Shown in pieces: positions 1,111 to 60,117 of a stretch of DNA of 64,000 bases (the first letter of the stretch is position 1; each line of letters opens with the position of its first letter). Origin of the DNA: Geothrix terrae (lineage in GTDB: Bacteria; Acidobacteriota; Holophagae; Holophagales; Holophagaceae); contig NZ_JAKZLA010000002.1 in assembly GCF_022808775.1 (NCBI RefSeq), forward strand, positions 310,001-374,000, read 5' to 3'. Under the pieces are notes generated by a model, which saw only the letters and a list, made by a program, of their open reading frames with translations, did not search any database and had not been told where the DNA came from. The translations under genes and the position numbers were made by a program.

Positions 1111-2175
1111 ATGGAACTCCTTCTCCATGAAACCAACCTCCTGGAAGAGGCTCTGAAGAAGCTTCGAGAGAACACGGGACTGGACGTGTGGGAGGTTCCT
1201 CCCCCGTTCACGCCAAACCCGACAGCTCCTCTTCGGCGCCCGGATGCTCGAATCGTCGTGGCAAGAGGTCAGCAGGAAACCGTCTACTGGGTTGAGATCA
1301 AGAAGACGGTCGATCGCCATGCGACCCTGGTGGCGTTCGCACAATTGGAAGCCCAGATTGGGCGGGAGAAGTTGGTCACAGAAGGGGGAGGCCTGCTGAT
1401 TACGAATCAGTTGACCGAAGAACTGGCCGACCACTGCCGGAGGATGCACCTGCAATTCCTGGATGCCGCCGGAAACGCCTACCTGGACCAGGACGGTTTG
1501 TTCGTGCTCATCCAAGGGAAGCGGCTTCACAGAGGCCTGCGCCTGCGGGAGAAACCCGCCCGCGCCTTCGACCGAACCGGCCTGAGGGTGGTCTTCGCCC
1601 TGCTGGTGAATCCGGAGCTGCTCAACGCACCCTATCGGGAGATCGCCAAAGCCGCTGGCGTCGCCCTTGGCACCGTGGGCCGCATCCTGACGGACCTCCG
1701 GATGCAGGGGCAGATCATCGAGCAGAAGGATGGCGAACGGCGCTGGGTGGATCGCGATCGCGCCATGAAGGCCTGGGCCCTGAACTACCCCCTGCGCCTC
1801 CGACCCAAGCTGAATCCCAGGCGGTACCGGGCGACCGACGACACCTGGTGGCATCAGGTCGATCCAGCCGCCTTCGGAGGGTACTGGGGAGGCGAAGTGG
1901 CAGCGGCCCGACGGAAGGGGAATCTCGCTCCGACCACCGCCACCCTCTACCTTCCCGAGAACCGGAACCCGTTCCTGACGGCCCATCGCCTGAGAGCCGA
2001 TGACCAGGGCCCCATCGAGATTCTGGATGCCTTCTGGGATCTTCCAGAACGCCCCCGTCAGGTGCGAGGCCTAGCCCCCGACCTTCTGATCTACGCTGAT
2101 CTTGCGGGCATGGGAGACCCCCGCACCCACGAGGAGGCAGAGCGAATCTATGACGACCTCCTGGCTGGAGCTTAA
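1111..2175 (+). CDS. Type IV toxin-antitoxin antitoxin, AbiEi family
   Basis: A 354-residue protein. The N-terminal half contains an acidic-lysine element (VEIKK near residue 69) and the string FLDAAGNAYL, which I associate with the AbiEi_2 type of antitoxin. Residues about 160-205 form a plausible winged helix (EIAKAAGVALGTVGRILTDL). AbiEi proteins counter the AbiEii nucleotidyltransferase without direct contact and repress the operon. No good Shine-Dalgarno is visible before the ATG, which lies 16 bp after a perfect operator palindrome. The gene overlaps the toxin start by 26 bp, so translation is probably coupled. Confidence 0.72.
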   Translation: MELLLHETNLLEEALKKLRENTGLDVWEVPPPFTPNPTAPLRRPDARIVVARGQQETVYWVEIKKTVDRHATLVAFAQLEAQIGREKLVTEGGGLLITNQLTEELADHCRRMHLQFLDAAGNAYLDQDGLFVLIQGKRLHRGLRLREKPARAFDRTGLRVVFALLVNPELLNAPYREIAKAAGVALGTVGRILTDLRMQGQIIEQKDGERRWVDRDRAMKAWALNYPLRLRPKLNPRRYRATDDTWWHQVDPAAFGGYWGGEVAAARRKGNLAPTTATLYLPENRNPFLTAHRLRADDQGPIEILDAFWDLPERPRQVRGLAPDLLIYADLAGMGDPRTHEEAERIYDDLLAGA

Positions 2176-3022
2176 GCACCCCCTGGAGCCTCACGTCGTG
2201 GCGCTTCTGGGAGACCTGGATGATGTGCTCCAGGCGGAAGGAATCCCCTACCTCCTCAGCGGCGCCATGGCCCGGGAAATCCTGCTCCACTACGGCCACG
2301 GATGTGCCCGGGGACGGAAGACGACGGATCTTGATTTCGGGGTCACGGTGAAGGACTGGAAGGCCTACGAGGCCCTGAAAGCCGCCCTCGTGGCCTCTGG
2401 ACGATTCAGGCTCGATGCAAAGGAATCCCAGCGCGTCATCCACAAGGACGCGACCACGGGCATGGAGACCCGCGTGGACCTGGTCCCCTTTGGCGCCATC
2501 GCCCAGGCGGACGGCACCATCGCATGGCCACCCGATGGGGCCCACGTGATGCACGTGCTGGGCTACGAAGAGGCCTTGGCTTCGGCCATTCGATTGAGGA
2601 TCGACACAACCCATGCGATCCCCATGGCATCAGCCGCAGGCCAGGCCATCCTCAAGCTGGTGGCCTACCGAGACCGAGGCACGAGAACACACGGAAGAGA
2701 CGCAGTGGACTTCTACGAGCTGCTCGGCCACCACGCCGACACACTCACGGATACCCAGCTCTATGACGAATTCCCAGAGGCAATGGAGCGATATGACTTC
2801 CAACCCGAGCCTGCGGGAGCTTGGATTCTTGGGAGACAGGTATCGAACCTGGCACCGGTCGCCCTCCGAGATTGGGTCCGTGGTCTTCTCTGCCCCCCTG
2901 AACGCGAGCGCCTGCTCACCTTCGCAGCACGTACACCCCTGGCCACGGCATCCATAGACACTGAAGTACTGCTAGCCGCTTTCGAAAAGGGGTTTCTATC
3001 CGGGCAACCACAACGGACCTAA
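2150..3022 (+). CDS. Nucleotidyltransferase toxin, AbiEii/AbiGii family
   Basis: The 290-residue form starting MTTSWLELKH is preferred; an ATG-like start 48 bp upstream would lie deeper in the antitoxin gene. The nucleotidyltransferase signature is visible: a GAMAREI stretch around residue 39, then TTDLDFGV with the metal-binding pair D60 and D62. AbiEii enzymes are GTP- or NTP-dependent nucleotidyltransferases that stop growth, for instance during phage infection. Placement directly after an AbiEi gene and before an R-M operon suggests a defence role. Substrate cannot be read from the sequence. Confidence 0.72.
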   Translation: MTTSWLELKHPLEPHVVALLGDLDDVLQAEGIPYLLSGAMAREILLHYGHGCARGRKTTDLDFGVTVKDWKAYEALKAALVASGRFRLDAKESQRVIHKDATTGMETRVDLVPFGAIAQADGTIAWPPDGAHVMHVLGYEEALASAIRLRIDTTHAIPMASAAGQAILKLVAYRDRGTRTHGRDAVDFYELLGHHADTLTDTQLYDEFPEAMERYDFQPEPAGAWILGRQVSNLAPVALRDWVRGLLCPPERERLLTFAARTPLATASIDTEVLLAAFEKGFLSGQPQRT

Positions 3023-3107: not shown

Positions 3108-5600
3108 ATGGCCGTCAAGAAATCCGACCTCTATTCCTCCCTCTGGGCTTCCTGCGACGAGCTGCGCGGGGGGATGGATGCCAGCCAGTACAAGGACTAT
3201 GTCCTGTTCATGCTGTTCATCAAATACGTCTCCGACAAGTACGGGAACAGCGACGCCTTCGCCCCTCCCATCACCATCCCGAAAGGCGCGAACTTCAAGG
3301 ACATGGTGGCCCTCAAGGGCAAGAGCGATATCGGCGACAAGATCAACACCCAGGTCATCCAGCCGCTCATCGACGCGAATAGCCGCCTGGCCCGCAGCGA
3401 TTTCCCCGATTTCAACGACCCCAACAAGCTCGGGGAGGGCAAAGAGCGGGTGGAGAAGCTCTCCAACTTGATCGCCATCTTCGAGAACCCGGCGCTGGAT
3501 TTCTCGAAGAACCGTGCCGAGCACGACGACATCCTGGGCGATGCTTACGAATATCTGATGCGCAACTTTGCTGTTCAAAGCGGCAAGAGCAAGGGGCAGT
3601 TCCTAACGCCGTCGGAAGTTAGTCGGATCATCGCCAAGGTCATCGGCATATCGCCGGAGAACACCAAGGCCTCCACCACGGCCTACGATCCCACCTGCGG
3701 ATCGGGCTCCCTGCTACTCAAGGTGGCCGCCGAGGCGGGAAAGCACATCACGCTGGAAGGACAGGAAAAGGACGTGACCACCGCCGGTCTCGCCCGCATG
3801 AACATGATCCTGCACGACTTCCCAACGGCCAACATCCTGCCTGGCAACACCCTGGCTTCCCCCAAGTTCAAGGACGACGAGCAACTCCGTACCTTCGACT
3901 ACGTGGTGGCCAATCCCCCCTTCTCCGACAAGACTTGGAGCAATGGCATCACGCCATCCGCCGATCCATACCAGCGCTTCGCATGGGGTGAGCCGCCCGC
4001 CAAGCAGGGGGATTACGCCTACCTTCTGCACATCCTCCGCAGCTTGAAGAGCACCGGCAAGGGCGCCTGCATCTTGCCCCATGGCGTGCTCTTCCGAGGC
4101 AACGCCGAGGCAGTTATCCGCGAGCAGCTCGTGCGCTCCGGCTACCTCAAGGGCATCATCGGCCTGCCCGCCAACCTCTTTTTCGGAACGGGCATTCCAG
4201 CCTGCATCCTGGTGCTGGATAAGGGAAACGCCGCCGCCCGCAAGGGCGTGTTCATGATCGACGCCAGCAAGGGATTCAAGAAGGATGGCCCCAAGAACCG
4301 GCTTCGCGAGCAGGACATCCACAAGATCGTGGACACCTTCACCAAGCAGGTCGAGATGCCCCGCTATGCGCGCATGGTGCCCTTCGACGAGATCGCCGAT
4401 CCCAAGAACGACTTCAATCTCAATCTGCCGCGCTACATCGATAGCAGCGACCCCGAAGATCTTCAGGATATCGACGGCCACCTGCGGGGCGGCATTCCCG
4501 AGCGCGATCTGGATGCAGCTGAGAGCGCCCTCGCCCCTTACTGGAAGGTGCTCCCAAGCCTGCGGACAGCTCTGTTTGAATCCGCTGGGCGCCCCGGCTA
4601 CGCCCGCCTCAGCGTACCCCAGGGCGAGGTGAAGGCCGTCATCCTGAGTCACCCCGAATTCACAGCCTTCAATACCCAGGCGCTGGGCCATTTTAACCAG
4701 TGGCGTAAGGCCAACACGCCGTACCTAACGGGCTTTGCAAAGGATGGTCATCCCAAGGCACTTATCGAGCAGCTTTCGGAGGACCTGCTCACCTCCTTCC
4801 AGAAGGACCCCCTTCTAGATGCCTACGACATCTACCAGCACCTGATGGATTACTGGGCCGAGACGATGCAGGACGACACCTATCTCATCGCCGCCGATGG
4901 CTGGGTGAAGGGAGCCCAACCCCGGGAGATCGGCCAGATCAAGAACAAGGACAATAAGCTGGTCTGGCCCGAGTCCCACGACTACCTGAAGGGGCGACGG
5001 CGCTTCAAGTCCGACCTCATTCCCGCCTCGATCCTGGTGGCGCGCTACTTCGCGGCCGAACGGGACGCCATTGAGGCCCTGGATAACGGGTTGGCGACCC
5101 TGGAGCAGCAGCTCGAGGAGCTGAAGGAGGAGCACAGCGGGGAAGAGGGCCTGCTGGCGGAGGTGATCGAAGGGGAAGGGGACAAACAGAAGATCACCGC
5201 CAAGGCCGTCAAGGATCGACTGAAGGAGATTGGTAAGGATCCGCTCTACCGCGAGGAGTGCGAGGTCCTGAAGGCCTTCGCCGCCCTTCTGGACAAACAG
5301 AAGGACACCAAGGACCAGCGTAAAGCCGCCCAGGTGGCGCTGGACCTGAAGGTCGACGCGAAATACCCCAAGCTCGCCGAGGCCGAGATCAAGGCCTTGG
5401 TCGTGGAGGACAAGTGGTTGGCTCACATCGCCAATGCGGTGCAGGGGGAGCTGGATCGCGTCTCCCAGACCCTCACGGATCGCCTCCGCGAGCTTGCCCA
5501 TCGGTACGCCACACCTCTTCCGGAGCTACTTGATGAGGTAGAGAAGCTTTCCGCCCGCGTGGAGGATCACCTCAAGCGGATGGGGGCGGTATGGAAGTGA
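3108..5600 (+). CDS. hsdM: Type I restriction-modification DNA methylase (M subunit)
   Basis: An 830-residue N6-adenine methyltransferase. An HsdM_N-type helical domain comes first. Motif I (SAM binding) is DPTCGSGSL at 194-202 and the catalytic NPPF at 269-272. The C-terminal ~330 residues are a long extension with coiled-coil-like stretches (EALDNGLATLEQQLEELKEEH). It is longer than the ~500-residue HsdM of E. coli but normal for the subgroup with long C-termini. It methylates the target sequence with HsdS and is also part of the restriction complex. An AGGGA ribosome site precedes the ATG; the stop overlaps hsdS by 10 bp. Confidence 0.93.
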   Translation: MAVKKSDLYSSLWASCDELRGGMDASQYKDYVLFMLFIKYVSDKYGNSDAFAPPITIPKGANFKDMVALKGKSDIGDKINTQVIQPLIDANSRLARSDFPDFNDPNKLGEGKERVEKLSNLIAIFENPALDFSKNRAEHDDILGDAYEYLMRNFAVQSGKSKGQFLTPSEVSRIIAKVIGISPENTKASTTAYDPTCGSGSLLLKVAAEAGKHITLEGQEKDVTTAGLARMNMILHDFPTANILPGNTLASPKFKDDEQLRTFDYVVANPPFSDKTWSNGITPSADPYQRFAWGEPPAKQGDYAYLLHILRSLKSTGKGACILPHGVLFRGNAEAVIREQLVRSGYLKGIIGLPANLFFGTGIPACILVLDKGNAAARKGVFMIDASKGFKKDGPKNRLREQDIHKIVDTFTKQVEMPRYARMVPFDEIADPKNDFNLNLPRYIDSSDPEDLQDIDGHLRGGIPERDLDAAESALAPYWKVLPSLRTALFESAGRPGYARLSVPQGEVKAVILSHPEFTAFNTQALGHFNQWRKANTPYLTGFAKDGHPKALIEQLSEDLLTSFQKDPLLDAYDIYQHLMDYWAETMQDDTYLIAADGWVKGAQPREIGQIKNKDNKLVWPESHDYLKGRRRFKSDLIPASILVARYFAAERDAIEALDNGLATLEQQLEELKEEHSGEEGLLAEVIEGEGDKQKITAKAVKDRLKEIGKDPLYREECEVLKAFAALLDKQKDTKDQRKAAQVALDLKVDAKYPKLAEAEIKALVVEDKWLAHIANAVQGELDRVSQTLTDRLRELAHRYATPLPELLDEVEKLSARVEDHLKRMGAVWK

Positions 5601-6889
5601 GGGCCGGCTACAAGCAGACGGAGGTTGGAGTCATTCCGGAGGAGTGGGATGTAAGAACCTTCGGGAGAAACTATGCCGAATCATCCCGCAACGGCATTTA
5701 CAAGTCAGCGGAGTTTCAGGGGCGAGGCACTCGCATTGTGAACATGGGCGAGATGTTCGGCTTCGATTTCATATCGGATCAAGAAATGAACCGCGTAGCG
5801 CTGACTTCCAGAGAGATGTCGATGACTGGGCTATGCGATGGAGATTTGTTGTTCGGTCGCCGTTCGGTCGTTCCTGCGGGAGCTGGCAAATGTTCCCTCG
5901 TTGTCGAACCATCCGAACCACTGACATTCGAGTCTTCCATCATTCGTGTTCGTCTGAATCAGGCGGACGCGAACCCGCTTTTTTACTACTACTTTTTTTC
6001 GTCATCCACTGGCAGGGATGTGATGAGCATCATCGTCTCTGGAACAAACGTAAAAGGTATTCGCGGGAGCGAACTGCGGGAGTTAAAGATACCGCACCCC
6101 CCGCTCCCTGAACAACGCGCCATCGCGGTGGCGTTGAACGATGTGGATGCGCTGCTGGGTGGGCTGTATCAGGTCATCGCCAAGAAGCGCGACCTCAAGC
6201 AGGCCGCCATGCAGCAGCTCCTTACCGGCCAAACCCGCCTGCCGGGATTCACCGGGGATTGGGAGGTGAAGCGGTTGGGGGACCACGTGACGTTTCTCCG
6301 AAATGGTGTGAACTCCCGAGCTGAGCTTCGACCAGAGGGGCGGGTGAGGTACCTCCATTACGGCGACATTCACGCCAGTACCGGCTCGTTTATCTCGCCA
6401 AAGGCCCTCCCAAGCCTCCCAGATGCAAAGGCTGCACGGCTCGATCGGCTTCGTGACGGCGATGTAATCTTCGCGGACGCATCAGAAGACATCGCCGGAG
6501 TCTGTAAGTCGGTAGAGCTATGCAATACTCTCGATGCCGAAGTTGTCCCCGGGTTGCACACAATCGCGGCGAGATTCGACAAAGGCGTGCTCGCCGATGG
6601 ATTCAAGGGATATCTCCAATTCTGCCCCTCATTCGCAGCACACCTCCGGCGCCTTGCAGCGGGGACCAAGGTTTTTGCAACAAACCGGGCACATATCGCA
6701 AGTGTCGAAATGAAGTTGCCTGGTGTCGCCGAGCAGGAAGCCATCACAAGTGTCCTCTCCGACATGGACACCGAACTGGTGGCGTTGGAACGGCGGCGGG
6801 AGAAGATCCGCGCCCTTAAGCAGGGCATGATGCAGGAACTCCTCACCGGCAAGACTCGGTTGGTCAGCCCGCCGGGAGGGGTGGTATGA
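5591..6889 (+). CDS. hsdS: Type I restriction-modification specificity subunit
   Basis: A 432-residue protein with the two-fold layout of HsdS: target-recognition domain 1, a conserved helical spacer containing PLPEQRAIAVALNDVD, target-recognition domain 2, and a second conserved helix region (VAEQEAITSVLSDMDTELV). Both repeats end in LLTG(Q/K)TRL. It sets the bipartite DNA site recognised by the methylase and nuclease. The target-recognition halves have codon use noticeably less GC-rich than the spacers, as usual for exchanged specificity cassettes. The stop overlaps the next start as ATGA. Confidence 0.93.
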   Translation: MEVRAGYKQTEVGVIPEEWDVRTFGRNYAESSRNGIYKSAEFQGRGTRIVNMGEMFGFDFISDQEMNRVALTSREMSMTGLCDGDLLFGRRSVVPAGAGKCSLVVEPSEPLTFESSIIRVRLNQADANPLFYYYFFSSSTGRDVMSIIVSGTNVKGIRGSELRELKIPHPPLPEQRAIAVALNDVDALLGGLYQVIAKKRDLKQAAMQQLLTGQTRLPGFTGDWEVKRLGDHVTFLRNGVNSRAELRPEGRVRYLHYGDIHASTGSFISPKALPSLPDAKAARLDRLRDGDVIFADASEDIAGVCKSVELCNTLDAEVVPGLHTIAARFDKGVLADGFKGYLQFCPSFAAHLRRLAAGTKVFATNRAHIASVEMKLPGVAEQEAITSVLSDMDTELVALERRREKIRALKQGMMQELLTGKTRLVSPPGGVV

Positions 6890-7486: not shown

Positions 7487-10075
7487 ATGAGTGATATCTC
7501 ACAGGAAATCATTGGCTGGCTGCACCAGCAGCAGGACTGGCTCCAGGAAGCTGCGGAGCGACTCCATAATTCGGGTTCACTATCTGAGGCCGATATTGAT
7601 CACCTGGTCTCCCGTCTCAAGTCCGAGGAGGGGCGAAAGGTCACCACATCGCGATCCTTTGAGGCGCTGGGTGGCTCTTCCCGAACGACAGCAGAGCTTC
7701 GCCTGCTTAGCCTGGGGGACATCAAGGGGATTGAAAACCTAGCCCCTAGAAGGCCGCTGGACTTTGGCAAGGGCAACCTCGCGGTGATCTATGGTCCCAA
7801 TGGCTCCGGAAAATCCAGCTACACGCGGATTCTGAAAAAGGCCTGCGGAAAGCCCTTGGCTAAGGAACTGAAACCCCATGTGTTCCAGGCTCCTCCTACG
7901 GAACGGAAATGCACGATTCGCTATCGCTCCAGTGGGGCTGAGTTGAGCGTTGAGTGGTCGCCGACCGGTGCTGCGCTCGCCGATCTCCAGTCCGTGGATT
8001 TTTTCGATGCCGACGCGGCGGCTTTCTATCTGAACAAGGAGTCAGAAGCCTCCTACACCCCTCCTGCCGTGGCCCTGTTTGAGGGGTTGGCCGCGGCCTG
8101 CAACCGCGTCAAAGACAAGCTCCAGGCCGAGCAGGTACTGCTGGTCAGTTCACTTCCGACCCTTCCGCCTGAGCACCTTGGAGCCAAGGCGGGAACGGCT
8201 TACCAGGGACTGAAGGCGGACATCTCCGAGGCTACACTTCAGCGCCTGATCCACTGGGCGGAGGCCGACCAGGCCGATCTTGATCTGTTGGTCGAACGGC
8301 TGAAGGTTGCGGATCCAACCCTCGCCGCCAGGCAGAAACGAGCCACCAAAACCCAGGTGGATCAGTTGGTGGAGGAACTGGAAAGCGTCGGAGCGGTCCT
8401 TGGCCAGGATCAGATCCAGGCTCTACGAGCTGCGCGAATGGGCGCCCAGGCAAAACGCAAGGTGGCCACGGAAGCCGCCAAGGCTTGTGCCCAGTCTTCC
8501 AAGCTGCAAGGCATTGGCACCGAGACCTGGAACGCTCTCTGGAAAGCTGCGCGACAGTATTCCCAGATCCCCTACCCAGACCAAGATTTCCCAGTGACCG
8601 GTCCTGGATCCCGGTGCCTGTTATGCCACCAGGAGCTTTCCAGCGATGCCCAGCAGCGCCTGCGTGATTTTGAGGCCTTCGTCCAGGGCATGGTGGAAGC
8701 CGAAGCGACGACTGCGGAAAGCGATTACGATGCCTTGCTGGAGGATCTACCCGTCGCTTTGTCCGAAGATGAGATCCGCACTCGCTGCGAAGCGGCTGGT
8801 GTTACGCAGGATGCACAGCTAAAGATTCTCAATACCTTCTGGGCAAGCGTAGGGCAGGCAAGCGAGCGATTGAAGGCTGGGGAATCAGAAGAATCAGCCA
8901 AGCCAGTAGAGGTGCCCGGCGACTTCCTGGAGTTGCTAAATGCCAGATCCAAAGCACTGGAATCCGAGGCCCATCAGCACGATGAGGACGCCAAGACTTT
9001 CAACCGCGCCTCGGCATTGAGCCAGAAAACAGAGCTTGAGGCCCGGAAGTGGGTCTCCCAGCAGTCCGAGGCCATTCAAAAGGAAATCGAGCGTCTGAAA
9101 AAGGTCAAAGCAATCGAGGGCTGGGCTCGCTGTGCCAATTCTGGACCAATTTCGGTACAGGCCGGGAAAGTCGCAGAGAGGGTCATCACCACAGCCTACG
9201 TGACGCGTTTCAACGCCGAGCTGAAAGCACTGGGTGCAGAACATATTCGCGTGGAATTGGTGAAAACCCGAACCTCACACGGGAAGGCCCTGCATCAGCT
9301 CCGCCTTAAGGGGGCTACTGCTGCCCAAGCCGTGCCGGATTCGGTGCTGAGCGACGGTGAGCGTCGTATTGTTTCACTGGCGGCGTTTCTGGCGGATGTT
9401 GCTGAAAAGCCCCATGCCGCGCCCTTCGTGTTCGATGACCCGATCTCATCCCTCGATCACGACTACGAGTGGCAGGTAGCGCAACGATTGGCGGAACTTG
9501 CAAAGGATAGACAGGTGCTGGTCTTCACGCATCGGCTTTCGCTGTATGGCGCGATGGAAGACGCGGCGAAAAAGAATGGAGACGATTGGCGCAAGGACCA
9601 CCTTGGGAAGCGCTACATCGAATCGTTTGGAGGGGCCTCGGGTCACCCTGCCAATGAGGCAGCGTGGAACGCTAAAACGAAGACGGCCAACAACATCCTC
9701 CTTAGCCGGCTAACGGAGGCCATGAAAGCGGCAGAGGTAGGAGGAGGCGATGCCTATCGACTCCATGCACAAGGCATTTGCTCGGACTTTCGTAAGCTTC
9801 TGGAGCGAACCGTTGAGGATGACCTCCTGAACGAGGTGGTTAAACGCCATCGTCGAAGCGTGACCACAGACAACCGCATTGGGAAACTGCCCCAAATCAC
9901 TCGCGAGGATTGTGATTTCATTGATGGCCTGATGACGAAATACTCTTGTTACGAGCACAGCCAATCACAGGAAACACCCGTTTTTCTGCCGGAAGAGCCT
10001 GCGCTGCGTGCAGACCTTGAAGGGTTGAGAGACTGGAGAGAAAAGTTCCATCAACGAGGTGGTGGCCATGCCTAG
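7487..10075 (+). CDS. RloC/PrrC-like SMC-type ATPase, candidate anticodon nuclease
   Basis: An 862-residue ABC/SMC-like ATPase starting [10 protein letters not shown] (a TTG 12 bp upstream is possible). Walker A is GPNGSGKSS at 103-111; Walker B is [11 protein letters not shown] around 647-657, preceded by an [12 protein letters not shown] signature. The middle is helical and carries a CLLC pair at 377-380, like the zinc hook of RloC. The C-terminus has R769-x3-E773 and H824 (YEHS), an arrangement similar to the Arg/Glu/His set of PrrC-type anticodon nucleases. It sits inside an hsd operon, as prrC does. The nuclease role is inference; the ATPase call is firm. Confidence 0.7.
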
Positions 10076-13000
10076 TCAGCCCCGCTCTGAGCGTACGACC
10101 CAGGATCGCGTCATTACCTTGTTCACGGATCCCAAGCGCCCGGGCTCTTTGGGCTACCGCTACCTGGGGGACTGGCACAAACGGGAGAACAACCGGCCCA
10201 TCGAAGCGGAGATCCTGCGGGAAAACCTGAAGGCCCGAGGGTATTCGGCGGTGCATATCTCCGCAGCCCTGCAAAAGCTGGAGTCCGCCGCTGATGCCTC
10301 CGGCATCACCCTCTACCAGGCCAACCTGCGCACGTACCAACTTCTGCGCTACGGCGTACCCGTGCAGGTCGCCGCGGGGCAGGCCTTCGAGACGGTGCAC
10401 CTGATCGACTGGGAACATCCTGAGAAGAACGACTTCGCTCTGGCGGAGGAAGTGACCATCAAGGGAGGCTATGAGCGCCGCCCCGACCTAGTGCTCTATC
10501 TGAACGGCCTCGCGGTGGTGGTGATCGAGCTAAAGCGCAGTTCGGTGGATGTGGTGGATGGCATCCGCCAGCTCATCACCAATCAGGAGGAGATCTTCAA
10601 CAAAGGCTTCTTCGGTACCGTGCAACTCGTGATGGCGGGCAGCGATTCCCAGGGCCTACGCTATGGCACCAGCGGAACCCTGGAGAAGTTCTTCGTGGAG
10701 TGGAAGAACACGGAGGCTTCCGGGGCTTCTCCTGCTACAGGTGAGCTGTTGGACCTTCCGTTGGCCCAGATGTGTGCCAAGGAGCGTCTGCTAGATCTCC
10801 TCCGCAATTTCATCATCTTCGACGCGGGTCAGAAGAAGGTGCCAAGGCAGCACCAGTTCTTCGGGGTAATAGCGGCGCAGGAACGCATCCAACGACGCGA
10901 GGGCGGCGTCATCTGGCACACCCAGGGCAGCGGCAAGAGCATCCTCATGGTGCTGCTGGCCAAGTGGCTACTGGAATTCGACCCGGAGGCCCGCATCCTG
11001 GTTGTCACCGACCGTGACGAACTCGACAAGCAGATCGAGGGGGTGATGAAGAATGCAGGGGTGATCGGCGAGGACTCACCTTCACCCCGCATCACCACCC
11101 GGGCGCAGTTCGTGCAGAAACTGGGTTCACCCACCCCGCGCCTTCTGTGCGCCTTGGTCCACAAGTTCGACCCTTCGGACCTCAGGGGCGAGCCGCCGAC
11201 GGTCCACGGGCGATTCTATGTGTTCGTGGACGAGTGCCACCGCACCCAAGGCGGCGACATGAACAAGCAGATGAAGCGATGGCTGGAGAGCGCCCTTTTC
11301 ATCGGCTTTACAGGCACGCCCCTGCTCCGCAAGGACAGGACGATGACCCGGGATGTGTTCGGCACTTACATTCACACCTACAAGTTCCACCAGGCGGTCG
11401 CGGACAAGGTGGTGCTGGATCTGAAGTACGAGGCCCGAGATGTGCCCCAGCGGTTGACCTCACCTAAGAAGATCGACGATTGGTTTGAGAAAAAAACGAA
11501 GGCACTGAATAACTTCCAGAAGGCCGTGTTGCGCAAACGTTGGGCAACGATGGAGGACTTGATGAGCTCCGCCGAGCGCAAGCAGCGCATCGTCTCGGAC
11601 ATCATCGAGGACTTCAGCCTGAAACCCCGGCTCAACAACGACCGGGGCACCGCCATCCTAGTAGCCGCTTCCATCTACGATGCCTGCCACTACTTCCGGA
11701 TCTTTCAGAACACGGGATTCGGTCCCTACTGCGGCCTGATCACCTCATTCGAGCCGAATCCAAGCGCCATCTCCAAGGAACCGACCAACAGCGATGAGCG
11801 CTACAAGTTCGACACCTACACCAAGCATGTTCTGAAAAAGGGGCAGAGCACCAAGCAGTACGAAGACCAGACCAAAAAGCGATTCATCGAGGAGCCTGCC
11901 AATCTCAAGCTTCTGATCGTCGTGAGCAAGCTGCTGACGGGTTTCGACGCACCGAGCTGTACTTACATCTACCTGGATAACAGCCTGCATGATCACGATC
12001 TCTTCCAGGCCATCTGTCGCACCAACCGTCTGGATGGCGAAGATAAGGACTTCGGTTACATCGTGGACTACAAGGAGCTATTCGGGGATGTACAGCAGGC
12101 CATCGCGGTCTACAACTCGGACGAGCTGGACATTGATGAGGGCAATGGAGGCAGCAACAACATCGAGCTCAAGGACTGGCTGAAGGAAGGCAAGAAGCAG
12201 CTCGACGCCGCCCAGGAAGCCCTTCGCTATCTCTGCGAACCTGTGGCACAACCGCGAGAGGTCGAGCAGTACCTCCACTACTTCTGCGGCCTAGCCAGCG
12301 ACCCGAACGCCTTGAGCGAAACTGAGCCGCTTCGTATTTCGTACTACAAGGCCGTGGCTTCCTTTGCCCGGACCTTTGCCGACCTCGCCCAGAACATGGA
12401 GGAGGCCGGGTATTCGGCCACTGAGGCCGGAGCCATCCAGAAGGAGCTGGAGGCCCACTGCGAATTCAGGAATGCCATCAAGAAGCATTCAGGTGAGGAG
12501 CTGGACATCAAGCCCTTTGAGGCGGACATGCGCCACCTCATCAATACTTACATCCAGGCGGATCCTTCCGACAATCTCGGCGATCTGGGAGCGCTATCCC
12601 TCACGGAACTCATCATCGAGACCGGCATTCACGATGCCATCGCACGCAAGCTGAACCAGAAGGGCAAGCTGACCAAGAATGCCATCGCCGAAGGAATCAT
12701 CAACAACGTCCGAAAGACCATCATCCGCGAGCAACTCACAGATCCGAAGTTCTACAAGGAGATGTCGAAGCTGCTGGACGACCTGATCCAGCAAAGCCGG
12801 GACGATTCGGAGAAGTACGAGGAATTCCTCCGAAAGGCAGAAGAGCTGGCCCGATTGCTGGCCGATAAGCAGCCCTACAACAACCTTCCCGCCTCTCTGC
12901 ACGGCGCGCACGAGGCCATCGTGGTCTACAACAACCTGGCGGACCTGCCCGGAGATACATTTCAGTGTCCCGGGGAAGACGAGGCCAAGGCGGCGCTTGC

Positions 13001-13163
13001 TATCGAGATCGATCTCGCCATGCGAGAGCATGCTCCCGCAGGATGGAAAGGAGACGAGACGCGGGAAGCTCAGGTCTTGAACGCGCTTTACCCGATCCTT
13101 GCTCGTGATCGGGAAGCGACGAAGGCACTGTTCGACATCATCAAGCACCAGCCGGGGTATTGA
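10068..13163 (+). CDS. hsdR: Type I restriction endonuclease, R subunit
   Basis: A 1031-residue motor/nuclease subunit. The N-terminal PD-(D/E)XK site is visible as D140 in [11 protein letters not shown] and E154-L-K156. The helicase part has Walker A TQGSGKS at 285-291, a DECH box at 388-391 and later SF2 motifs ([19 protein letters not shown]). A long C-terminal assembly domain follows. It cleaves unmethylated DNA at a distance after ATP-driven translocation. The ATG at 10068 is chosen because it overlaps the upstream stop (ATGCCTAG); GTG codons 6-9 bp upstream are less likely. Confidence 0.94.
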
Positions 13164-13879
13164 TGACGGAATCCATCCAGATTGGGGAGATCACCATCAC
13201 GGTGACCCGGAAGGACGTCAAGCACGTTCATCTGTCGGTTCACCCTCCGCATGGCCGTGTCACGCTGGTCACACCTGTGGCCACCCGCCTGGAGGTCGCG
13301 CGGGCCTACGCGATTTCCAAACTGGGCTGGATCCGAACCCAGCAGGAGAAGCTCCAGAACCAGGCGCGGGAGACTAAGCGCCGATTTGTAACCCGGGAAT
13401 CACATTACCTTTGGGGGCGTCGCTATCTGCTGAATGTGCGAGAGGCGGAAGCCAAGCCCGCGGTGTCCCTTGATCATCGCCGTGTCACGCTGAGCATCCG
13501 GCCTGGCAGCAGCGAAGCAAAAAGGGCCGTGGTGATGCACGAATGGCACAAAGGCCTGCTGCATGAGGTGGTTCCCCCCATCATCCAGAAGTGGGAGAAG
13601 CGCCTTGGCGTGTCCGTGGCCGCCTATTTCCTTCAGCGCATGAAGACCAAGTGGGGGAGCTGCAATCCCAAGGCCCAGCACATCCGCCTGAATACCGAGC
13701 TGGTGAAAAAGCCGAAAGATCTGCTGGAATACGTCATTGTCCACGAAATGATTCACCTGATCGAACCCACCCACAGCGAGCGCTTTCTCGCCTTACTCAC
13801 CGAACACTTCCCGACATGGCGCGAAGCTAGGGCCGAACTGAACGATCTGCCATTAGGATCAGAATCATGGAGGGAGTAG
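13163..13879 (+). CDS. SprT/YgjP-like zinc metallopeptidase
   Basis: A 238-residue protein of the YgjP/DUF45 family, seen from KTKWGSCNPKAQHIRLN followed by the zinc-site HEMIH, with a distant third ligand region THSERF. Such genes very often end type I R-M operons, but their role there is not established. Its ATG shares one base with the hsdR stop (TGATG), so it belongs to the same transcript. The product is probably cytoplasmic, since no signal peptide is seen. Confidence 0.82.
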   Translation: MTESIQIGEITITVTRKDVKHVHLSVHPPHGRVTLVTPVATRLEVARAYAISKLGWIRTQQEKLQNQARETKRRFVTRESHYLWGRRYLLNVREAEAKPAVSLDHRRVTLSIRPGSSEAKRAVVMHEWHKGLLHEVVPPIIQKWEKRLGVSVAAYFLQRMKTKWGSCNPKAQHIRLNTELVKKPKDLLEYVIVHEMIHLIEPTHSERFLALLTEHFPTWREARAELNDLPLGSESWRE

Positions 13880-13977: not shown

Positions 13978-15129
13978 ATGACGACCGGCATGTTCGTCCT
14001 CCAAGAGGGCTCAGGCATCATCGAACTGCGTGAATCTCCCTACGCTTCTGAAGACCTGCTTCAAAGCTACCTGGCCGATCATCCGGCCTTGATGCCTGGG
14101 GACCAGATTAATCCCTCCGCCCCTCGGCGATGGCTTCTGGTTCAGCGGGAGCTGGGTATTCCGGGCGAGGAGGATGGCACCTCACGATGGTCGCTCGATC
14201 ATCTGTTTCTCGACCAGGAGGCAGTGCCGACCTTGGTTGAAGTGAAGCGGAGCAGCGACACGCGTATTCGCCGGGAGGTCGTGGGGCAGATGCTCGATTA
14301 CGCAGCCAACGCCGTGGCCTATCTCAAGGTTGGAGATCTTCAAGAAGCCTTTGCGACCGATTGCGCTCGACAGGGCAAGGATCCTGATGCTGTTCTTCGA
14401 GATGTGCTGGGTCTTGATTTGGAAGCCGATGCCTTCTGGCAGCGGGTGAAGACAAATCTTCAGGCTGGGAGGATCCGCCTGGTGTTCCTGGCGGACCGAA
14501 TTCCTTTGGAGCTGCGCCGCATCGTGGAATTCCTCAACGAGCAGATGGATCCCGCAGAGGTGATCGCCGTGGAGATCCGTCAATTTGAGGGACCGGGGCT
14601 TCGCACCCTCGTACCTCGGGTTTACGGCGTCACGGCCGAATCGGAATCGCGCAAAGCTGCTTCTCCTCGGGGGGCCCGCTGGGACGAGGAAAGGTTCTTT
14701 GGAGCACTTCGCTCTGCCCGGCCTGAGGGTGTGCAAGTCGTGAGATCCCTCCTCACCTGGGCCGAATCCCACGCAGATCGGATCGATTAGGGTGCAGGTC
14801 TTTCCAGTGGCAGTTTCACCCCGGTGATCCTCACGCCGGACGCGTGGTACCCCCTGTTTTCGCTCTACACCAACGGCACGTTAGAGATCCCTTTCCAGTA
14901 CCTCAAGACCCGGCCAGCCTTCATCTCCGAAGCCTCCCGCGAGGAGCTATGGGCCCGTTACCAATCCGTGCCTGGCATCTCCATTCAAAAGCCGAGCCTG
15001 GATAAGCGCCCCTGGTTCAACTGCACGAATCTGCCACCCGAATCCACCCAGATCCTTCAGGAAACCCTTGAATGGTGCTTGGGACAGATGCGGGGGCTGC
15101 CTGGGGCGATGAGTCTCGACCGATCCTGA
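13978..15129 (+). pseudogene. PD-(D/E)XK nuclease-like gene broken by an amber codon
   Basis: The frame opens at ATG 13978 (SD TAAGG) and reads 270 codons to a TAG at 14788-14790, then continues in the same frame for another 113 codons to TGA at 15127-15129. The first part has a nuclease-like core (DHLFLDQEAVPTLVEVKRSSD, a D...E-x-K pattern). The second part (SGSFTPV... TLEIPFQYL) looks like the normal C-terminal domain of the same family. In relatives as I remember them, a Trp-Gly pair occurs where TAG GGT now stands, so a TGG-to-TAG change is likely. It may be a true pseudogene, a truncated working protein or a sequencing error. Confidence 0.6.
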
Positions 15130-15154: not shown

Positions 15155-16507
15155 TCACCCGGACTTCTTGATCTCCAGATTCGCCACGTTGGAGGTGTCA
15201 AGAATCCCCCAGGTCGGCGCCAGCTTGTCGATGGCCTCGGCCAAGGCGCTGTGGCAGATGTGCCCGTAGTGTTTCTCGACCATGCGGGTATCGGTGTGAC
15301 CGAGCTGGGCCGCGACATAGGCTAGCGGCACGCCTCGGTTCACCAGTCCCGAGGCATAGGTGTGCCGGAGTTCATGGAACGTCATGGCTTCCAACCCCGC
15401 CGCCTCGCAAGCTTCGGCCATGGGTCGTGAGGCTTCTGATTTCCGCCAGGGTCGGAGGATCTTCTCACTGTTCCGATTCCGGTTGCTGTAAGAGTCCCGC
15501 AGGAACAGCGCCTGGTCACCCCGCTTCCCTGCCGTGAGCGAACGGAAGAAGCTGAGCCCCTCCTCCGTGAGATAGACGTATCGGGGCTTCGAGTTCTTGG
15601 TCAGCTCGAAGAAGATCGTTTTGGACATCTCGTTGAAGTCGGAAACCCGGATGCGGGTGAGTTCTCCAAACCGAGCGCCCGTCAGAAGGGCCGCCTGAAC
15701 CAGAAGGCGGAATTCCGGATCGCAGGCATTCACAAGACGCTGAGCCTCGTCGGGATTGAGGAACCGCTGCCGCGCGGAGACCGTCCCCCGGAAGGGCGCC
15801 ACCTCCCGCCAGGCTTCGCCGCTGGCCTTCGTGAGCCTGCGGCGCTTGGCGAAGCTGAGCATGGCTTTGAGCACCCCCAGCACTCGGTTGGCGGAAGCAC
15901 GACGGGCTCGCTTCACATCCGGAGTGATCGGATCTTCCCCGTGGGCATGTTCATCGGCGCCCTTCTTGGTCCGCCTCCGCGCAGGCGCCTCGGCGAGCTT
16001 CTGGTGCCACTTCTCCACGCGGTACTGAGTCAGATCGGATACCTCCATGTTCCCGAACGCGGGAAGGATGTGGGCCCTGACCGTGGCCCCCGTCTGGGGC
16101 AAGCTCTTCATGCCGCGACGCTCGGCATCCTCGGCGTAGGCTTCCCAGGCATCCTTGACGGTGAAAGGGCCACGCCGGATGGGTTCACCCCTGAAGTCCG
16201 CTCGGGCCTCTTCGAACCACTCACGCGCCTTCGCCTGCGCCTGTGCGTAGCTGAAGACATCCCGATCGTCCGCATCGGTGTAGTCGTCGGCGGTGCCAAT
16301 CGACTTGCGGGCGATCTTCTTGGAGACGGGATCGTAGAGGCGGGCGCTCCAGGTTCCGGCCCCGCCCTGCTTGGGCCGGTAGTACCCCAAGGCCTCACCC
16401 GGGGCGAGCGAAACCCAATGAGGTTCCTTCTGACTCGAAAGCTTCAAACGGGCGGATCGGGTGTCCAGTTTTGCGCTGCGAACATTCCTGACCACAAGAT
16501 CCTCCAT
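15155..16507 (-). CDS. int: Tyrosine-type site-specific integrase
   Basis: A 450-residue tyrosine recombinase. The catalytic domain is clear: first Arg in LLTGARFGELTRI, then HELRHTYASG (H-x-x-R), LGHTD, and the nucleophile Tyr in VEKHYGH. The N-terminal part has an Arm/SAM-like binding region (YYRPKQGGAGTWSARLYD; VKDAWEAYAEDAERR). It lies 128 bp from, and reads away from, a duplicated tRNA-Glu 3' end, the usual position of an island integrase next to its attachment site. It should catalyse integration and excision of the island that fills the left 16.7 kb. Confidence 0.92.
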   Translation of the reverse strand: MEDLVVRNVRSAKLDTRSARLKLSSQKEPHWVSLAPGEALGYYRPKQGGAGTWSARLYDPVSKKIARKSIGTADDYTDADDRDVFSYAQAQAKAREWFEEARADFRGEPIRRGPFTVKDAWEAYAEDAERRGMKSLPQTGATVRAHILPAFGNMEVSDLTQYRVEKWHQKLAEAPARRRTKKGADEHAHGEDPITPDVKRARRASANRVLGVLKAMLSFAKRRRLTKASGEAWREVAPFRGTVSARQRFLNPDEAQRLVNACDPEFRLLVQAALLTGARFGELTRIRVSDFNEMSKTIFFELTKNSKPRYVYLTEEGLSFFRSLTAGKRGDQALFLRDSYSNRNRNSEKILRPWRKSEASRPMAEACEAAGLEAMTFHELRHTYASGLVNRGVPLAYVAAQLGHTDTRMVEKHYGHICHSALAEAIDKLAPTWGILDTSNVANLEIKKSG

Positions 16508-16634: not shown

Positions 16635-16678
16635 CTTTCACGGCGGTAACACGGGTTCAAATCCCGTTAGCCCTACCA
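16635..16678 (+). other. Island attachment site: 3' part of tRNA-Glu(UUC)
   Basis: The 44 nt start with the seven-base anticodon loop CTTTCAC, then GGCGG (anticodon stem 3' strand), variable TAAC, T-arm ACGGG-TTCAAAT-CCCGT, acceptor strand TAGCCCT, discriminator A and CCA. This is the standard 3' part of tRNA-Glu(UUC). The 5' half is absent: the bases before the loop neither pair with GGCGG nor form a D-arm. The fragment is therefore the duplicated att core left at the right boundary of an element integrated in the tRNA-Glu gene. The working tRNA should be at the left boundary, outside the window. Confidence 0.85.
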
Positions 16679-59448: not shown

Positions 59449-60117
59449 CTACTGGGGCGGCAGGAGGATGGCGTCCTTGATGCGCACCGCGTACTGGGGC
59501 ACGCCGCTCTGGCCCTTGCGCCATTCCGTACGCACCTTCTCGATCTTGTCCACCACGTCCATGCCCGACACCACCCGGCCGAAGACGCAGTAGCCGTAGC
59601 CGTCCTCGCTCATGTCCCGGTGGTCGAGGGCCTTGTTGTCCACCGTGTTGATGAAGAACTGGGCCGTGGCGCTGTGAGGGGATCCGGTGCGGGCCATGGC
59701 GATGGTGCCGCGGGTGTTCTTCAGGCCGCCCCGGAAGGTCTCGGGCGCCTCGTTGAGGATGGCCGGACGGGTGGGCTTCTCGTCCATGCTCTCCAGCATG
59801 CCGCCGCCCTGGATCATGAAGCCCTCGATGACGCGGTGGAAGATGGTGCCCTTGTAGAACCCCTCCTTCACGTACTGGAGGAAGTTCTCCACGGTCTTCG
59901 GCGCCAGCCCGGGCTCCAGCTCCACCACGATGGGACCGTAGCTGGTCATGAGCTGCACGCGGGGCTTCGCCACCGGCACGGGCGTGGCCACCGGGGCGGG
60001 TGCGGGGGTCTGGGCCGGGGGCGCCGGGACGGGCGCCTGATGAGTCGGGGGCACCGGGACGGGCGCCTGGGCGGACAGGGTGGCGGCGAGGAAGAGGCAG
60101 GGCAGCAGGCGGGGCAC
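59449..60117 (-). CDS. Exported cyclophilin-type peptidylprolyl isomerase
   Basis: A 222-residue protein from a GTG with AGGAG upstream. A signal peptide (PRLLPCLFLAATLSAQA) and a Pro/Ala-rich linker (about residues 20-55) precede a cyclophilin domain with FHRVIEGFMIQGGG, GTIAMARTGSPHSATAQFFIN and GYCVFGRVVSGMDVVDKI. The catalytic Arg (FHR) and FFIN are present. It should assist folding in the periplasm. Its stop lies 6 bp from the plsC start, so the two may be co-transcribed. Confidence 0.88.
   Translation of the reverse strand: MPRLLPCLFLAATLSAQAPVPVPPTHQAPVPAPPAQTPAPAPVATPVPVAKPRVQLMTSYGPIVVELEPGLAPKTVENFLQYVKEGFYKGTIFHRVIEGFMIQGGGMLESMDEKPTRPAILNEAPETFRGGLKNTRGTIAMARTGSPHSATAQFFINTVDNKALDHRDMSEDGYGYCVFGRVVSGMDVVDKIEKVRTEWRKGQSGVPQYAVRIKDAILLPPQ

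Follow-up and report, generated by a model that had tools for sequence, protein, structure and literature searches.

Genomic Setting of the Interrupted Gene

The window, by which we mean the whole 64-kb stretch of DNA that was analysed, starts inside an island of about 19.2 kb and contains a gene whose reading frame is interrupted by a single TAG codon. The gene lies 3' of an apparently intact type I restriction-modification operon and a YgjP-like gene, and 5' of an integrase (Table 1). A 43-base repeat of the tRNA-Glu 3' end probably marks where an integrative island ends on the right; the intact tRNA-Glu gene is found at G000:C7:307390-307464, about 19 kb upstream of this copy.

Table 1. Features of the interrupted gene and its surroundings, in window coordinates.
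Feature	Position	Strand	Remarks
hsdM of type I restriction-modification operon	3108..5600	+	N6_Mtase, HsdM_N
hsdS	5591..6889	+	Methylase_S
AAA ATPase gene, PADLOC PDC-S06	7490..10075	+	Between hsdS (with a DUF1643 gene) and hsdR; start 7490 chosen by eye, mechanical ORF start 7475
hsdR	10059..13163	+	
YgjP-like metallopeptidase gene	13160..13879	+	Ends in TAG
Upstream part of interrupted gene	13978..14787	+	270 codons; whole PD-(D/E)XK domain (about residues 1-218), linker, first helices and start of first strand of C-terminal domain
In-frame TAG	14788..14790	+	Residue position 271; in first strand (268-271) of C-terminal domain
Part behind the stop	14791..15129	+	Remainder of C-terminal domain; 112 codons and TGA
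Mechanical ORF from in-frame GTG after the stop	14824..15129	+	Not regarded as a gene; without ribosome-binding site by eye
Tyrosine integrase	15155..16507	-	Phage_integrase
Copy of tRNA-Glu(TTC) 3' end	16636..16678	+	43 bases; one mismatch to intact gene

An AbiEi/AbiEii-like type IV toxin-antitoxin pair at 1111-3022 of the window adjoins the restriction-modification operon. An empty island site was sought in a congener (L161, G006:C5:145000-152000), where the search found only a right flank similar to the window from 16680 onward, standing behind a tRNA-Met-like 3' fragment. An intact tRNA-Met gene lies about 4 kb upstream of that fragment, and this is perhaps another element at a different tRNA.

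The Interrupted Frame

Exactly one internal stop is observed in the plus-strand frame from 13978 to 15129, which ends in a TGA at 15127-15129. Inter-stop gaps of at least 112 codons make up 251 of the 2114 in the window, so that the open stretch behind the TAG is not unusual when taken alone. Its length is thus no proof of a single gene; homology across the stop, which was observed directly, indicates more than chance. When the downstream 112 residues were searched by themselves against the fetched loci (tblastn, E ≤ 1e-3), 45 of 83 relatives matched, every one of them in the frame of the upstream match and at most 120 bases from where that match ends. The initial annotation had described family-like sequence on both sides of the TAG, and the homology found upstream and downstream in one frame bears this out.

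The downstream codon score was positive in frame 0 only, at 0.17 per codon, a value reached by 5.2% of non-coding pieces, while 9.2% of coding pieces score as low. The upstream part, with 0.21 against a coding mean of 0.44, was also low for coding sequence. A mechanical scan of the window returned three candidate split frames, the interrupted nuclease gene included; the other two were set aside as apparent ends of normal genes, one at a cyclophilin gene followed by an acyltransferase gene and one at a sigma-54 activator. Promoter and terminator scans of the nuclease gene gave nothing beyond chance.

Relatives and the Residue at the Stop Column

Genome contigs yielded 376 relatives, of which 80 loci were retained, and 3 loci from 23 plasmid records brought the comparison set to 83 relatives; partial matches are present among the plasmid matches listed (20 of the 23 records). 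Open frames of 370-389 codons were found in 68 of the 83. At the column of the window's TAG, 79 relatives have Trp (54), Phe (14), Tyr (8), Val (1), Thr (1) or Ile (1) and none has a stop, with the residue unsure in a few rows whose C-terminal region hardly aligns (e.g., L035, L041, L070, L071, L004). The four relatives left out of this count have frames that end before the site. L025, L030 and L043 end early by internal stops of their own, and their read-through frames have Trp at the column by eye; L018, which is ambiguous, has 244 codons and ends at a TGA shortly before the contig end. Homologues, then, do not normally end where the window gene does, and the objection that the initial annotation had foreseen on this point fails. 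The Trp that the initial annotation named for this position is the commonest residue but is not shared by all relatives, Phe and Tyr being the main alternatives. A weakly supported tree puts the window gene on a long branch, next to rows that carry Val and Thr at this column, and the rows nearest to it by path have Trp. These sequences allow no safe reconstruction of the residue lost at 271, which could also have been Tyr.

The distribution of the gene is observed to be sparse. Its nearest relatives share about 60% identity at most, and a search of the genus with the upstream part gave nothing in 46 genomes besides its own; of the full 47, 30 have a completeness of at least 90%. In the phylum, the family gave matches in 11 of 395 other genomes, most of them partial. 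No match in the genus and few in the phylum are what is expected of a dispensable acquired gene, and this gene is most likely both acquired and dispensable. The upstream part had no match among phage records; two viral contigs encode relatives.

Domains and Fold of the Encoded Protein

The gene product is an uncharacterised two-domain protein, with an N-terminal PD-(D/E)XK domain and a separate C-terminal domain. A structure predicted for the window sequence, with Trp put in place of the stop, had a pLDDT of 88.3 and a pTM of 0.59; the border between the domains is placed in this predicted model, where a poorly predicted linker lies near residues 227-231. Four residues, D74, E88, K90 and Q104, do not vary among 42 aligned sequences taken from the fetched relatives, and the first three of them supply the catalytic D...(D/E)xK signature. 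The predicted model also has the core fold of the PD-(D/E)XK superfamily: NucS/EndoMS catalytic domains (2vld, 5gke) head the VIA-align list with Z 11.6 and 11.1, the match at Z 11.6 having an rmsd of 2.0 over 108 residues (model residues 24-203), and SduA, HamA, Card1 and McrBC chains appear lower in the same list. Foldseek alone gave no match to the predicted model at E ≤ 0.001. Fold and signature both support the first description of the gene as PD-(D/E)XK-like.

The C-terminal domain, predicted alone, reached a pLDDT of 92.8. Its best fold match was YdhG/frataxin-like (9t2w, Z 6.9), and it also matched the C-terminal "double wing" domain of MotA (1kaf, Z 6.5); at Z below 8, these matches may mean just a common arrangement. 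A guess from such weak fold matches is that the domain may bind DNA or regulate the nuclease. Pfam, NCBIfam and PHROGs offered no usable family for the gene, and a by-product of this analysis is a two-domain family, widespread and bearing a NucS-like nuclease, that went unrecognised by Pfam or NCBIfam models in the sequences scanned.

Divergence Behind the Stop

Across pairs of relatives, the identity of the C-terminal part tracks that of the N-terminal part, and the window row falls near the family line (mean residual -0.013; standard deviation of other pairs 0.072). This test used 74 of 84 rows, the window included; by divergence, the window ranks 27th among the 74, and 17th when only the 59 rows that carry Trp or Tyr at this column are taken. 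Nineteen other C-domain columns are conserved in at least 70% of those rows, and in 14 of them the window keeps the family residue, differing at residues 314, 328, 331, 349 and 357. With downstream divergence that is ordinary for the family, the stop probably either arose recently or is not real; the test is coarse, the relatives being at most about 60% identical, and excludes old decay only. The initial proposal of a recent inactivation agrees with this result.

Stops Elsewhere in the Family

Additional searches of genomes enlarged the set to 138 loci, 132 of them distinct. Internal stops were found in 10 of the 132 distinct relatives, in a count that ignores the last 12 aligned residues; an eleventh, L188, has its stop near the C-terminus. 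In window numbering, single stops fall at 271 (L170, a TGA), 276 (L076), about 265 (L174), 249 (L030) and 222 (L176), and, outside the domain junction, at 52 (L025), 116 (L043) and about 366 (L188), the positions in L174 and L188 having been transferred by eye. More than one stop is present in L087, L192 and L198. Several of the stop-bearing loci are metagenome assemblies, and L043 and L187 are listed together among the family members with internal stops. These stops, at differing sites, show that such lesions are common in this nuclease family.

Counting the one in the window, nine stops are single, and six of these fall within residues 222-276, near the domain junction. In simulations scanned over position, with the multi-stop loci left out, this clustering had a P of about 0.02 (0.017 uniform, 0.020 codon-weighted); the region was picked after the data had been seen, and the scan corrects for place and not for length. 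We treat the clustering as a lead only. L170 (1498-2616 on the minus strand), a relative from a search of Chloroflexota, has its TGA in the very column of the window's TAG. This was rejected as a striking coincidence, two of nine stops sharing a column with a P of 0.30 when codon-weighted and 0.09 when uniform. The C-terminal regions of L174 and L176 are of another kind than the window's, and by eye the N domain is joined to differing C-terminal regions in relatives such as L173, L175 and L178-L181.

tRNAs and the Use of TAG

The genome has 71 Rfam tRNA matches. ARAGORN, run on the stretches that hold them, called no tRNA with a CTA anticodon (amber suppressor); the one match that it passed over, L133 7547-7620, has the anticodon GCA. 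TAG is the terminator of 2 of 7 checked window genes (the AAA gene and ygjP) and also of the cyclophilin gene at 59449.

About 31 tRNA genes stand on one strand at G000:C14:157278-163603 (L133 7278-13603), outside the window and a few kb from a contig end. This array is additional to the ordinary set elsewhere in the genome, and ARAGORN also calls a doubtful tmRNA within it.

Interpretation of the Stop Codon

We consider it likely that the window holds an accessory gene for a two-domain, NucS-like nuclease, carried on a tRNA-Glu-targeted island and cut short by a recent nonsense mutation. The nuclease gene would have been acquired on an integrative island that targets tRNA-Glu, and a recent nonsense mutation would have produced the TAG at position 271, ending translation after residue 270. 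The short product would retain the complete NucS-like PD-(D/E)XK domain and lose most of the C-terminal domain. Relatives are intact across the site and the truncation removes conserved sequence, as in a nonsense pseudogene. Most likely the allele is heading for decay, being either inactive or misregulated; the remaining part has intact catalytic residues, and its activity may persist. If this is simple decay, the locus is one more mobile accessory gene broken soon after arrival.

We infer that the TAG base itself is correct. A base error in the assembly, with the gene intact in the organism, would account for a single substitution in a frame that is open elsewhere and has diverged to an ordinary extent behind it, and the lone stops in relatives, several from metagenome assemblies, fit such an error; it is nonetheless an unlikely explanation, as the genome appears to be of good quality (14 contigs, completeness 97.68%, contamination 0.08%) and the mechanical scan turned up no other gene of the window interrupted in this way. 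We are a little more doubtful that the short form is functional, with a nuclease domain that works alone and a junction truncation that is tolerated or selected. The nuclease domain does end well before the stop and its catalytic residues are intact, and both the varied C-terminal partners of the N domain and the six stops near the junction, one of them in the window's own column, speak for this reading. Yet the ends inspected include no clear, normally ending single-domain relative (L018 being ambiguous), the clustering is weak after correction and the shared column is expected by chance, and the window's stop lies not at the linker but inside the C-terminal domain, past its two helices. Improbable, in turn, is the stronger form of this idea, in which junction truncation would be a recurrent, selected change: stops near 222-276 would repeatedly drop the C-terminal domain and keep the nuclease as a short form, deregulated or on standby, with the loss regained by reversion or low-level readthrough.

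The initial annotation had raised stop readthrough as an alternative to inactivation, and this suggestion is not supported. A little full-length protein made beside the short form would explain why the frame behind the stop is open and conserved, but it would call for a very unusual situation here: no CTA-anticodon tRNA is among the tRNAs found, none of the 79 aligned relatives has a stop at the column and the one further relative that does, L170, has TGA, and TAG serves as an ordinary terminator in the window. Genome-wide amber suppression was rejected on the tRNA and terminator evidence, and a conserved recoding site on the stops of relatives, which differ in identity and place. Readthrough above background is therefore unlikely. 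Hardly credible is separate production of the downstream part from the GTG at 14824, which begins 33 bases after the stop in the right frame; by eye it has no ribosome-binding site before it, its product would lack the conserved C-domain residues 272, 274, 278 and 280, and the relatives encode one protein.

A Possible Role in Defence

The N-terminal domain resembles PADLOC PDC-S11, a single-gene candidate for phage defence, matching PDLC04916 (E 1.2e-10, 39 bits, residues 14-242) and PDLC04915 (E 7.4e-7). The match differs from a true PDC-S11 assignment in being weak and confined to the N domain (model positions 14-212 of 358), and the downstream part had no PADLOC match at E ≤ 0.1. The intact relative L011 likewise matches over residues 12-246 only, and not at full length. 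In a passage of PMC10855318, PDC-S11 is described as encoded in 10 P. aeruginosa strains, 90% of which are phage-resistant.

The type I restriction-modification setting, the weak PDC-S11 match and one relative that lies beside BREX genes (L004) point towards a defence role. In the available flanking DNA, a homologue of the window's restriction-modification or YgjP genes was found near 6 of the 83 relatives. Surveys of 110 neighbour genes of 56 relatives, made without a background control, found no PADLOC model that matched more than two (among the first 25 of the 230 models with a match), and DAP epimerase, with nine, was the Pfam family seen most often among these genes; a general defence association was not seen among relatives in these uncontrolled surveys.

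Comparison with Known Systems

The protein shares with NucS/EndoMS the fold of the catalytic domain. Identity over the aligned part is 17%, and PDB chains searched by sequence profile yielded nothing at E ≤ 1; similarity to NucS/EndoMS was found at the level of fold and not of sequence. The catalytic domain aligns with residues 126-233 of 2vld and is N-terminal in the window protein, where it has a different partner domain.

The interrupting stop is a real but ordinary finding. As in ordinary bacterial nonsense pseudogenes, an accessory gene on a mobile island is open but for one stop; the case departs from them in the intact catalytic domain left upstream of the stop, and nothing else observed distinguishes it.
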